A DNA stretch of 64,000 nucleotides, taken from Paenibacillus tundrae. GTDB taxonomy: Bacteria; Bacillota; Bacilli; Paenibacillales; Paenibacillaceae. Positions 1,357 to 60,607 of the stretch are shown here, piece by piece. The notes beneath the pieces are model-generated. The model saw only the letters and a list, made by a program, of their open reading frames with translations, was not told the origin of the DNA and ran no database searches. Each line of letters begins with the position of its first letter. The stretch's first letter is position 1. Both the position numbers and the translations under genes were made by a program. The stretch lies in the NCBI RefSeq assembly GCF_036884255.1, contig NZ_CP145605.1, positions 5,208,001 to 5,272,000 of the forward strand, in the 5' to 3' direction.

Positions 1357-1372
1357 CATGCCAGCCGGCATG
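1357..1372. other. Small hairpin between cntM and cntA
   Basis: CATGCC and GGCATG arms close a four-base loop in the 166-bp spacer between cntM and cntA. A second pair (TCCATATC / GATATGGA) flanks a longer loop nearer cntA. No T-run follows, so these may be processing or partial attenuation structures that change the ratio of receptor to biosynthesis enzymes. This role is inference. Confidence 0.3.
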
Positions 1373-1407
1373 CTTCGTAACTATACAGCGGACTCTTTGA
1401 AGCAAGG

Positions 1408-9876: not shown

Positions 9877-9897
9877 GATGAATTCCTCCTTATGGAT

Positions 9898-9940
9898 GTT
9901 GTTCAAAAAGTCCAAACCGACCTTTTTAACACGCACTTAT
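9898..9940. repeat. Internally deleted copy of the GTTCAAAAAG interspersed repeat (copy D)
   Basis: The two ends of the element (GTTGTTCAAAAAGTCC and CCTTTTTAACACGCACTTA) are joined with almost the whole interior missing. It lies between the second permease gene and the FMN reductase ribosome site. Confidence 0.7.
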
Positions 9941-13554: not shown

Positions 13555-13660
13555 ATCGCTTCCCCCTCTGTGTATACAGGTGTCATTGAATCATTAATCA
13601 ATATAACCTATAAGATAACTTGGTTTTAATCTGTTAAAAAATGGCCTGTCGGCTTGCCGC

Positions 13661-13694
13661 GTAATCAAAAGCGAACTTTTTGAACTTCCTCTAA
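13661..13694. repeat. One-ended fragment of the GTTCAAAAAG interspersed repeat (copy F)
   Basis: GTAATCAAAAGCGAACTTTT followed by TGAACTTCCTCTAA matches the right end of the full copy near 15.6 kb. It begins directly after the stop codon of the monooxygenase gene; no opposite end was found. Confidence 0.55.
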
Positions 13695-15080: not shown

Positions 15081-15433
15081 TTATATTCGTTAATCTAGAA
15101 GTTATTGATATTGACCTACGTTCGCAGAGCAACCGTCCCAAACACTGTTCTCTCAAGCTTTCCGACTATTCATCCGTATGAGAAAACAATAAAAGTTAAC
15201 TATTCCTATGAGTTTGGTTTGTTTTAATTTCACAAATCTTATCACTGCCCTGCTAATGGGTCAACTGTGTTTCTTATAGAACTTTTCTATATGTGCATTG
15301 GATAATCCAAAGGAACACTTTACCTTAGCCGTGTTTAGATCAAAATTAACTCTCCCGACTACTCTATGCCGTGATGACAGCCCATCGCAGCTGGGAAAGT
15401 TGCTTTACAAAAGGAGCCATTACGATCCAACTT
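15081..15433. other. Spacer between glutaredoxin and monooxygenase genes, non-repeat part
   Basis: About 350 AT-rich bases with no convincing open frame. A second promoter for the monooxygenase and transporter part of the cluster may lie here, but no clear -35/-10 pair was found. Confidence 0.35.
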
Positions 15434-15657
15434 AAAGTGCGTGTTCAAAAGGGTCGGTTTTCAGTACCGAGAAAAGGGGGATGAAGATAGAAATGGAGTA
15501 GCGGAGCGTAGGCAAAACTACGTGAGCAACTACATTGTTTCCGGAGGAAACAAACTTCGTAAGCATCCACTTATTTCGGCTGAATCCCATATTCGAAGCT
15601 GAGATGCCGCTCGCGCATCCTTCGTAATCAAAAGCGGACTTTTTGAACAACCTCTTA
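15434..15657. repeat. Full-length GTTCAAAAAG interspersed repeat (copy A)
   Basis: This 224-bp element has imperfect terminal inverted repeats (GTGCGTGTTCAAAAGGG at the left, CGGACTTTTTGAACAACCTC at the right). Its interior has internal dyads and is recognisably the same as the inverted copy near 60.4 kb: the segments ATAGAAATGGAGTAGCGGAG and CTACGTGAGCAACTACAT are shared. No transposase is encoded. Its right end supplies the TAA stop codon of the glutaredoxin gene. Open frames of 60-85 codons inside it are not considered genes. Confidence 0.85.
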
Positions 15658-15933
15658 AACGGCTGCTGCTTCGTCCTGGCGTTCAAGAAGCTCTGCCAGT
15701 TTTTCCAAATCTGCCTCTAGCAAGGCTTCATACTTTCCGTCTCTGCCTACCTCAATAACAGGTACATGACGGATCCCATACTTGGCTTCCAATACATCTC
15801 TCAATACGTCGTTGCCTTGTACTTCAATGTTCTCAAAAGGCTGATTCCGCTCGGTCAAAAATGCCTTAACCTCCCCACAGAAATGACAACCAGTTTTGCT
15901 CCAGAGCACGACTTTTTTGGATGAAGAAGACAT
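15655..15933 (-). CDS. Glutaredoxin/thioredoxin-like protein (YtnI-like)
   Basis: This 92-residue thiol-disulfide protein has the active site CHFC at about residues 16-19, the cis-proline strand HVPVIEV and a C-terminal helix, so it is a complete glutaredoxin fold. Bacillus ytnI, in the equivalent sulfur operon, encodes such a protein, presumably acting as reductant for an oxidised sulfur intermediate. AGGAGGT lies six bases before the selected ATG; another ATG two codons earlier touches the ribosome site. It is the first gene after the cluster promoter. The stop codon lies inside the end of the repeat element. Confidence 0.85.
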   Translation of the reverse strand: MSSSSKKVVLWSKTGCHFCGEVKAFLTERNQPFENIEVQGNDVLRDVLEAKYGIRHVPVIEVGRDGKYEALLEADLEKLAELLERQDEAAAV

Positions 15934-16026
15934 CGACATACCTCCTGATTGGATTCAAGGTTATGATCAGGGAATCAGCATCCCAGACCATTAATTCCTA
16001 TCTGTTAAATAAGAATTATGGCTATA

Positions 16027-25811: not shown

Positions 25812-25850
25812 AGTACGTGTTCAACAGCGGGCGTTATGAACAACCTCTTA
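25812..25850. repeat. Degenerate short copy of the GTTCAAAAAG interspersed repeat (copy E)
   Basis: GTACGTGTTCAAC and GAACAACCTCTTA retain both ends of the element with most of the interior lost. As in copy A, the end supplies the TAA stop codon of the gene on the minus strand, here that of the giant repeat protein. Confidence 0.55.
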
Positions 25851-51918: not shown

Positions 51919-51954
51919 TGCTGTTCACTCCTTTATAAGTCAGCATTTATAAAA

Positions 51955-52027
51955 GTTGTTCAAAAAGTCCGCTTCTCTATCTTCATTCCACCTTCTCGGT
52001 AGTTAAAACCGTACTTTTTGAACACGA
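51955..52027. repeat. Internally deleted copy of the GTTCAAAAAG interspersed repeat (copy C)
   Basis: GTTGTTCAAAAAGTCCGC at the left and CTTTTTGAACACGAATT at the right match both ends of the copy near 60.4 kb, with about 130 bp of the interior missing. It lies in the sdhC-sdhA spacer, starting 17 bases behind the sdhC stop. Confidence 0.75.
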
Positions 52028-52043
52028 ATTGAAAGCTAAATGC

Positions 52044-60387: not shown

Positions 60388-60607
60388 AGAGGTTGTTCAA
60401 AAAGTCCGCTTTGATTAAGAAGCATGCCTAACGGCATGATCAGCGTCGAATATGGAATTCAGCCGAAATAAGTGGATTCTTACGCAGCTTGTTTCCTTCG
60501 GAAAAATGTAGTTGCTCACGTAGTCTTGCCTACGCTCCGCTACTCCATTTCTATCTTCATCCCATCTTCTTGGTACTGAAAACCACCCTTTTTGAACACG
60601 CACTTAT
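60388..60607. repeat. Full-length GTTCAAAAAG interspersed repeat (copy B)
   Basis: This 220-bp copy is in the opposite orientation to copy A at about 15.5 kb and has the same ends (GGTTGTTCAAAAAGTCCGC; CCCTTTTTGAACACGCACTTA). The same interior segments are present, such as TACGCTCCGCTACTCCATTT and GTAGTTGCTCACGTAG. It lies between trxA and uvrC. Frames inside it are not genes. Confidence 0.87.

Follow-up and report, generated by a model that had tools for sequence, protein, structure and literature searches.

The bcr1 element and the other group A repeats of the Bacillus cereus group are MITE-like, short and intergenic, and often lie in untranslated regions or inside operons; the parts of the published descriptions drawn on here give 11 to 130 copies of bcr1 per genome, tie its mobility to a TTTAT motif, confine it to the B. 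cereus group and do not name a dedicated transposase (PMC6542083, PMC3446304). In the accounts of other systems, again in the portions used here, the pneumococcal RUP and BOX sequences are small interspersed repeats of a Gram-positive genome (PMC3049150), and MITEAba12 of Acinetobacter is a non-autonomous MITE found across a bacterial family and described as derived from an insertion sequence (PMC6382973). bcr1 is the nearest analogue of the repeat family of the Paenibacillaceae that we report here, the two being compared by description and not by sequence; as far as those partial accounts go, bcr1 has one motif, whereas the Paenibacillaceae repeat is flanked by a range of AT-rich 5-mer duplications. 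On the same partial basis MITEAba12 has an insertion sequence as its source, whereas our search found no parent for the present family. RUP has been linked to IS630-type ends with TA targets, in contrast to the 5-bp duplication seen here. Miniature elements derived from Tn3 (TIMEs) generate a 5-bp AT-rich target duplication, as does the Paenibacillaceae repeat, which differs from them in its end sequence and in that its richest carriers have no Tn3 transposase. The intergenic elements of the REPIN/RAYT system likewise have paired inverted ends, but differ in that the Paenibacillaceae repeat has a clear 5-bp target duplication. No description or name of this family was found in the open-licence papers searched.

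The window, that is, the whole 64-kb stretch of DNA analysed, occupies positions 5208001-5272000 of the 6,534,616-bp single contig of its own genome (G000), the first bases of which read like what we take to be dnaA. The original prediction held that at least six copies in the window share inverted ends, two being full-length, three internally deleted and one one-ended. All six were located as claimed, with this anatomy and with refined coordinates, together with a weaker seventh piece (Table 1). Matches to the ends GTTCAAAAAG at up to one mismatch number 13 in the window, against 5.6 expected, and none of 100 shuffles reached 13. The inverted ends are 16 bp long and imperfect, the left reading GTGCGTGTTCAAAAAG and the right GAGGTTGTTCAAAAAG.

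Table 1. Copies of the repeat in the 64-kb window and anatomy of the copy at 15.4 kb (window coordinates; TSD, target-site duplication)
Feature	Position	Strand	Remarks
Full-length copy, 218 bp (217-bp class)	15437..15654	+	Left end GTGCG at 15437, right end CCTC at 15654
Target-site duplication TTAAA, left	15432..15436	.	One TTAAA in the G064 empty site
Target-site duplication TTAAA, right	15655..15659	.	Overlaps stop codon of minus-strand glutaredoxin-like gene 15655-15939
Left terminal inverted repeat	15437..15452	+	One mismatch against consensus GTGCGTGTTCAAAAAG
Right terminal inverted repeat GAGGTTGTTCAAAAAG	15639..15654	-	
Central hairpin GTAGCGGAGCGTAG..CTACGTGAGCAAC, helices 2 and 3	15498..15530	+	Compensatory changes
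Second hairpin TTGTTTCC..GGAAACAA, helix 4	15535..15553	+	Missing from 178-bp class
Third hairpin GATGC..GCATC, helix 5	15603..15619	+	
Full-length copy, 215 bp, upstream of uvrC-like gene	60389..60603	-	TSD TTATA/TTATA; orientation opposite to the 15437-15654 copy
Internally deleted copy, 78 bp, between sdhA-like and sdhC-like genes	51952..52029	-	No clear TSD
Two ends only, 42 bp	9895..9936	-	TSD 4/5; 40-43 bp in three relatives
Two ends only, 35 bp	25813..25847	+	TSD 4/5
One-ended (right-end) piece	13644..13691	+	Tandem arrays at same site in G037 and G064
Weak seventh, right-end piece	1357..1402	+	E 0.0015; 47 bp in G037, lost in G034 and G064

The own genome as a whole yielded at least 43 BLAST matches at E<=0.01, a lower bound because only 40 of the 131 first-look candidates were scored. 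The left-end pattern gave 108 hits and the right-end pattern 88, compared with 2 and 0 for the respective reversed controls. Merging gave 135 clusters, built from the 43 BLAST matches, the 88 right-end places and, of the 108 left-end places, the 100 listed less those that were plainly right ends; some single-end clusters with three mismatches may be due to chance. The stretches fetched from this genome contain 90 pairs of ends, against none when the motifs are read backwards. The genome of this soil bacterium carries roughly a hundred copies. They are unevenly placed: the region from 2.75 to 4.0 Mb, around the terminus, holds three of the 135 clusters where 25.8 would be expected. This region has a lower G+C content in the stretches sampled (0.40-0.45) and may be accessory or recently acquired, and the GC skew of the fetched stretches switches sign near 3.25 Mb. 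The orientation of the copies relative to replication (55 of 90, p 0.045) is too weak for use.

Over all the loci fetched from many genomes, 266 pairs of ends were collected, including some places fetched twice; 244 are distinct in sequence, orthologues being counted apart. These 244 copies fall mainly into two size classes, 80 being 175-179 bp and 82 being 215-219 bp long, and a tail extends over 30-100 bp. Of the 244, 96 are flanked by a perfect 5-bp target duplication, compared with 11.4 expected when the right flanks are re-dealt, and the 5-bp flanks match at four or five positions in 170, compared with about 60 expected; the copies in these counts are not independent, because orthologous copies of related genomes are included. 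A first reading of the duplication as 4 bp was rejected, since symmetric ends give 5 bp. The duplicated 5-mers are AT-rich, usually with T first and A last, the commonest being TATAA, TTAAA, TTATA and TATTA, and a perfect duplication is kept by 18 of the 62 copies shorter than 110 bp. Only 8 of 88 and 14 of 82 full copies keep open the frame that has no stop in the window copy, compared with 1.1% of shuffles; although this share exceeds that of the shuffles, no reading frame is conserved and the family is non-coding.

The repeat combines several of the features by which MITEs are recognised, namely a non-coding sequence of less than 500 bp, terminal inverted repeats, a 5-bp target duplication, and a high copy number together with empty sites. 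We put at roughly 85% the probability that a MITE-like family of the Paenibacillaceae is the best explanation of the whole. A DDE-type transposase would have inserted it by acting on the ends in trans, since enzymes of this type usually leave a 5-bp duplication around terminal inverted repeats. Two main size classes, of 217 and 178 bp, spread, and many copies have been inherited vertically after insertion. Such copies lose their interiors in place through deletion, which at the 15.4-kb site in G037 took place between imperfect 8-bp direct repeats, and they decay to pairs of ends of about 33-83 bp.

Four genomes were compared over about 260 kb, in 26 rows of sites: G000, G034 of the same species, G064 and G037. 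Over 27 tiles their mean identity to G000 is 96.8% (G034), 95.6% (G064) and 92.9% (G037), and the splits favour the tree ((G000,G034),G064),G037 by 364 sites against 151 and 186. Eight of the 26 rows show precise empty sites as judged by overlap, row 8 with a ragged flank; the empty-site sequences themselves were read for rows 7, 10, 14 and 15, and row 21 (the 25.8-kb site), which resembles an empty site in the comparison table and is none, was left uncounted. The window copy at 15.4 kb has a precise empty site in G064, with a single TTAAA. Within the species, G034 carries the element at rows 14 and 15, where the sites of G000 are empty, and at row 10 the situation is reversed; the duplication at row 14 is TTGAA (TTCAA on the other strand). 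The original prediction had proposed a genome-wide search and a search for empty sites in related strains, and had named the lack of further copies and of empty sites as grounds for abandoning it; many further copies and several empty sites exist.

At rows 10, 14 and 15 the occupancy conflicts with the four-genome tree, since G037 carries the element together with just one of the three more closely related genomes. The flanks group the genomes as occupancy does at 15 of 26 informative sites for row 14, 5 of 27 for row 15 and 4 of 22 for row 10. Since the flanks of row 14 group as its occupancy does, recombination between lineages is indicated there; for rows 10 and 15, where few flank sites agree, one would have to assume that precise loss occurred repeatedly or that the recombined tract was very short. 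The recombination signal at row 15 consists of only two differences adjoining the site, and row 10 has none. Precise excision may therefore contribute to this patchy presence.

Copies also differ in size between genomes, by at least 20 bp in 13 of the 26 rows. This count includes rows 1, 6 and 9, where the difference is partly due to tandem or other DNA, rows 10 and 15, which represent a switch of size class, and rows 0, 17, 18, 20 and 25, which were taken without reading the sequence. Reading the sequences showed loss in place at rows 2, 7 and 8 as well as at the 25.8-kb site. In G037 the site of the 15.4-kb copy holds a form of 61 bp, the deletion ending in imperfect 8-bp direct repeats. The 52-kb copy, 78 bp in G000, measures 178 bp in G064 but 35-36 bp in G037, whereas G034 lacks it and has a ragged flank there. 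At the 25.8-kb site the copy is 87 bp long in G037 and 35 bp in G034 and G064. The 60.4-kb copy is full-length in G034 and G064, and in G037 its site (row 9) holds 89 bp of other content with a stretch resembling a left end in the opposite orientation. The site at 13.67 kb carries tandem arrays of 671 bp in G064 and 598 bp in G037, and 13 bp in G034; the one-ended piece there is probably the remnant of such an array. The deletion series proposed in the original prediction is thus real, but where it can be followed it reflects decay in place rather than mobilised deletion derivatives, and it arises largely in situ. Head-to-tail arrays of two or three copies also occur elsewhere in G000 (at 2308582-2309038, 4356867-4357429, 676129-676516 and 538598-539049), with a period of about 183 bp where measured, and the length of the array at the 13.67-kb site differs between species.

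The two size classes can occupy one and the same insertion: at rows 2, 10 and 15 a copy belongs to the 178-bp class in one genome and to the 217-bp class in another, and at row 10 both forms have in common differences seen in no or few other copies. In the short class GGA(C) replaces a hairpin block, and the same joint is present in P. urinalis and in another genus. This switch goes beyond simple slippage or simple deletion, and may reflect gene conversion between copies.

An internal fold of the element was examined in an alignment of 61 rows, obtained from 177 copies of 160-300 bp by way of 65 representatives; L228, L101, L342, L096 and the P. popilliae copy L131 were left out, and the window copy was added. 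The proposed structure is paired in 98.1% of cells, a percentage favoured by construction because the window copy and the consensus themselves served to define the structure. Two-sided changes, the counts of which are less affected in this way, occur at 11 pairs compared with 2.9 in shuffles, and none of 500 shuffles reaches any of the measures; the relatedness of the rows inflates both the paired percentage and the two-sided counts, and such shuffles do not give probabilities for related sequences. Versions of the structure slid along the alignment have at most six pairs with two-sided changes and 42.4% pairing. The compensatory changes fall in four helices. RNAalifold predicted 28 pairs, six of them with two-sided changes, its covariation term being small (-0.38 of -16.98 kcal/mol). 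Folded as plus-strand RNA, the window copy surpasses 199 of 200 shuffles (z -2.9), and the minus strand gives a z of -1.8. RNA structure prediction had been proposed as a further check. Going by the conserved hairpins with their compensatory changes, the fold appears to have been of consequence in those lineages in which the element spread, whether for its mobility or in RNA.

Gene positions around the copies are those of our own simple predictions rather than of an annotation. Only 7 of the 90 paired copies share more than 30 bp with a predicted gene, which bears out the claim that copies lie between genes. The accompanying claim that most lie within operons holds in the weaker sense of co-directional neighbours, which flank 55 of the other 83 copies; 17 lie between divergent and 11 between convergent genes. 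Of 77 element edges facing a stop codon, 27 are no more than 10 bp away from that codon, compared with 8.7% of 1487 control TWWWA sites in element-free spacers (Fisher p ~7e-10). At L494 (12351-13038), in another genus, the right element end appears to supply the last codons and the stop of a gene, and a neighbouring 293-bp copy carries an extra hairpin-like insert.

The fold and the co-directional setting are also what one would look for in a dispersed regulatory or structural RNA kept by the host, its hairpins acting in the transcripts of neighbouring operons (on stability or by attenuation) and its mobility lying mostly in the past. The compensatory changes in the four helices fit such an element, as does one conserved G-U pair (60 of 61 rows), which would be A-C if the other strand were transcribed. 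However, the copies are oriented at random relative to their co-directional genes (28 the same, 27 opposite, n=55), orthologous copies diverge about as much as their flanks do (96.7% against 94.7% identity), with no stronger conservation found, and the hairpins have been lost in place at several loci; moreover, no Rfam match at the gathering score was obtained in the 64-kb window. We regard a host-kept RNA as unlikely, and return to the reading of the family as MITE-like. A more specific and speculative form of that reading, which we hold to be unlikely, is that the element is a structured parasite whose internal fold would be recognised, together with its ends, by a putative mobilising enzyme of the Paenibacillaceae, and whose size classes would interconvert at fixed loci by replacement of the hairpin block with the short GGA(C) joint, as three orthologous sites suggest.

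The original prediction took the repeat to be a MITE mobilised in trans. Its MITE-like nature is borne out by the data above; mobilisation in trans is inferred. Ends shared with an autonomous transposon, a further mark of MITEs, were looked for among the 140 best-scoring loci with matches to Tn3, DDE_Tnp_1, DDE_Tnp_1_6, rve and Y1 transposases, none of which is convincingly bounded by the family ends. DDE_Tnp_1 (PF01609) occurs in 51 of 75 genomes and DDE_Tnp_1_6 (PF13751) in 46 of 75, both having no match in G000, G034 and G064 and one in G037. The 30 loci scanned for the former gave three single weak end matches, none of them bounding a locus, and the 30 for the latter gave one. The rve domain (PF00665) was matched in 21 of 22 genomes and 11 times in G000, and its 30 scanned loci again gave one single weak end match. 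Nine of the matches in G000 have near-equal scores (contig C1, at 705862, 1219361, 1228222, 1444280, 1667794, 2329728, 5574938, 5868485 and 6025012). The rve elements L396 and L418 of G000 were rejected as partners, having other ends; on reading they represent a 1.3-kb IS3-like element, 98.6% identical between the two.

We also searched outwards from the ends themselves. In 10 low-copy genomes and one plasmid, 20 loci were examined that surround ends chosen, among those listed, for having no listed partner. They contain no enclosing transposase, and none was seen when the open reading frames of L217, L144, L167, L204, L220, L335, L336, L376, L383, L386 and L394 were read by eye; L386, considered as a candidate, is a copy of the ordinary kind whose right end is damaged. 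The 400 kb examined of a distant carrier (G142) likewise contain no enclosing transposase, and a 3.5-kb candidate in it proved to consist of neighbouring genes and an ordinary copy, one end of which is damaged.

Derivation from a Tn3-family transposon, as a TIME with 5-bp AT-rich duplications and inverted repeats extending to about 35-38 bp, would account for the AT-rich 5-bp duplications and for the likeness of the two ends beyond 16 bp in our reading of the alignment. Tn3 ends are typically of the GGGG type and 38 bp long, whereas those of the present family read GTGCG and GAGGT. PF01526, the Tn3 transposase domain, occurs in 19 of 75 genomes and is missing from the MITE-rich G000, G034, G064 and G037, G067 being the only MITE-rich genome among the 19. 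None of the 30 Tn3 loci scanned has two flanking ends at three mismatches or fewer. One of them, L268 in G067, has weak matches on either side of the gene, right-like with four mismatches and left-like with three, a level that is reached by chance at many loci. We consider this origin very improbable. Still less probable are REPIN-like elements moved by a RAYT/IS200-type Y1 transposase, since, although the copies are intergenic and often at stop codons and their own genome has four Y1 matches (PF01797), 10 of the 22 carriers searched have none, none of the 20 Y1 loci scanned is bounded by the ends (L442 merely has an ordinary copy nearby), and Y1 enzymes to our knowledge make no target duplication, so that the 5-bp duplications, perfect in 96 of 244 copies, refute the classical mechanism.

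The MITE-like family is widespread among relatives of its host. At least 159 of 394 Paenibacillaceae genomes have matches, in 12 of 19 genera, with two candidates scored per genome, and within the genus at least 46 of 75 have them. The named genome collection contains 101 exact matches to a stretch of one end, and the 80 among them that were listed are all from Paenibacillus. Plasmid records gave three matches, all from Paenibacillus, and phage records none. A predicted viral contig (L232) has an exact match to an element end at 2303-2324.

A family carried by so many Paenibacillaceae genomes, and without a name in the papers searched, complicates their annotation and assembly, and at the same time offers ready presence/absence markers. 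The missing partner enzyme, in carriers that have no match to Tn3, DDE_Tnp_1 or DDE_Tnp_1_6, raises a concrete question. The compensatory changes make it testable whether an internal fold is needed for the movement of a bacterial MITE. Finally, the three sites polymorphic within the species, together with the size-variable copy in the sdh operon, allow a direct test of the effects of the element on neighbouring genes.
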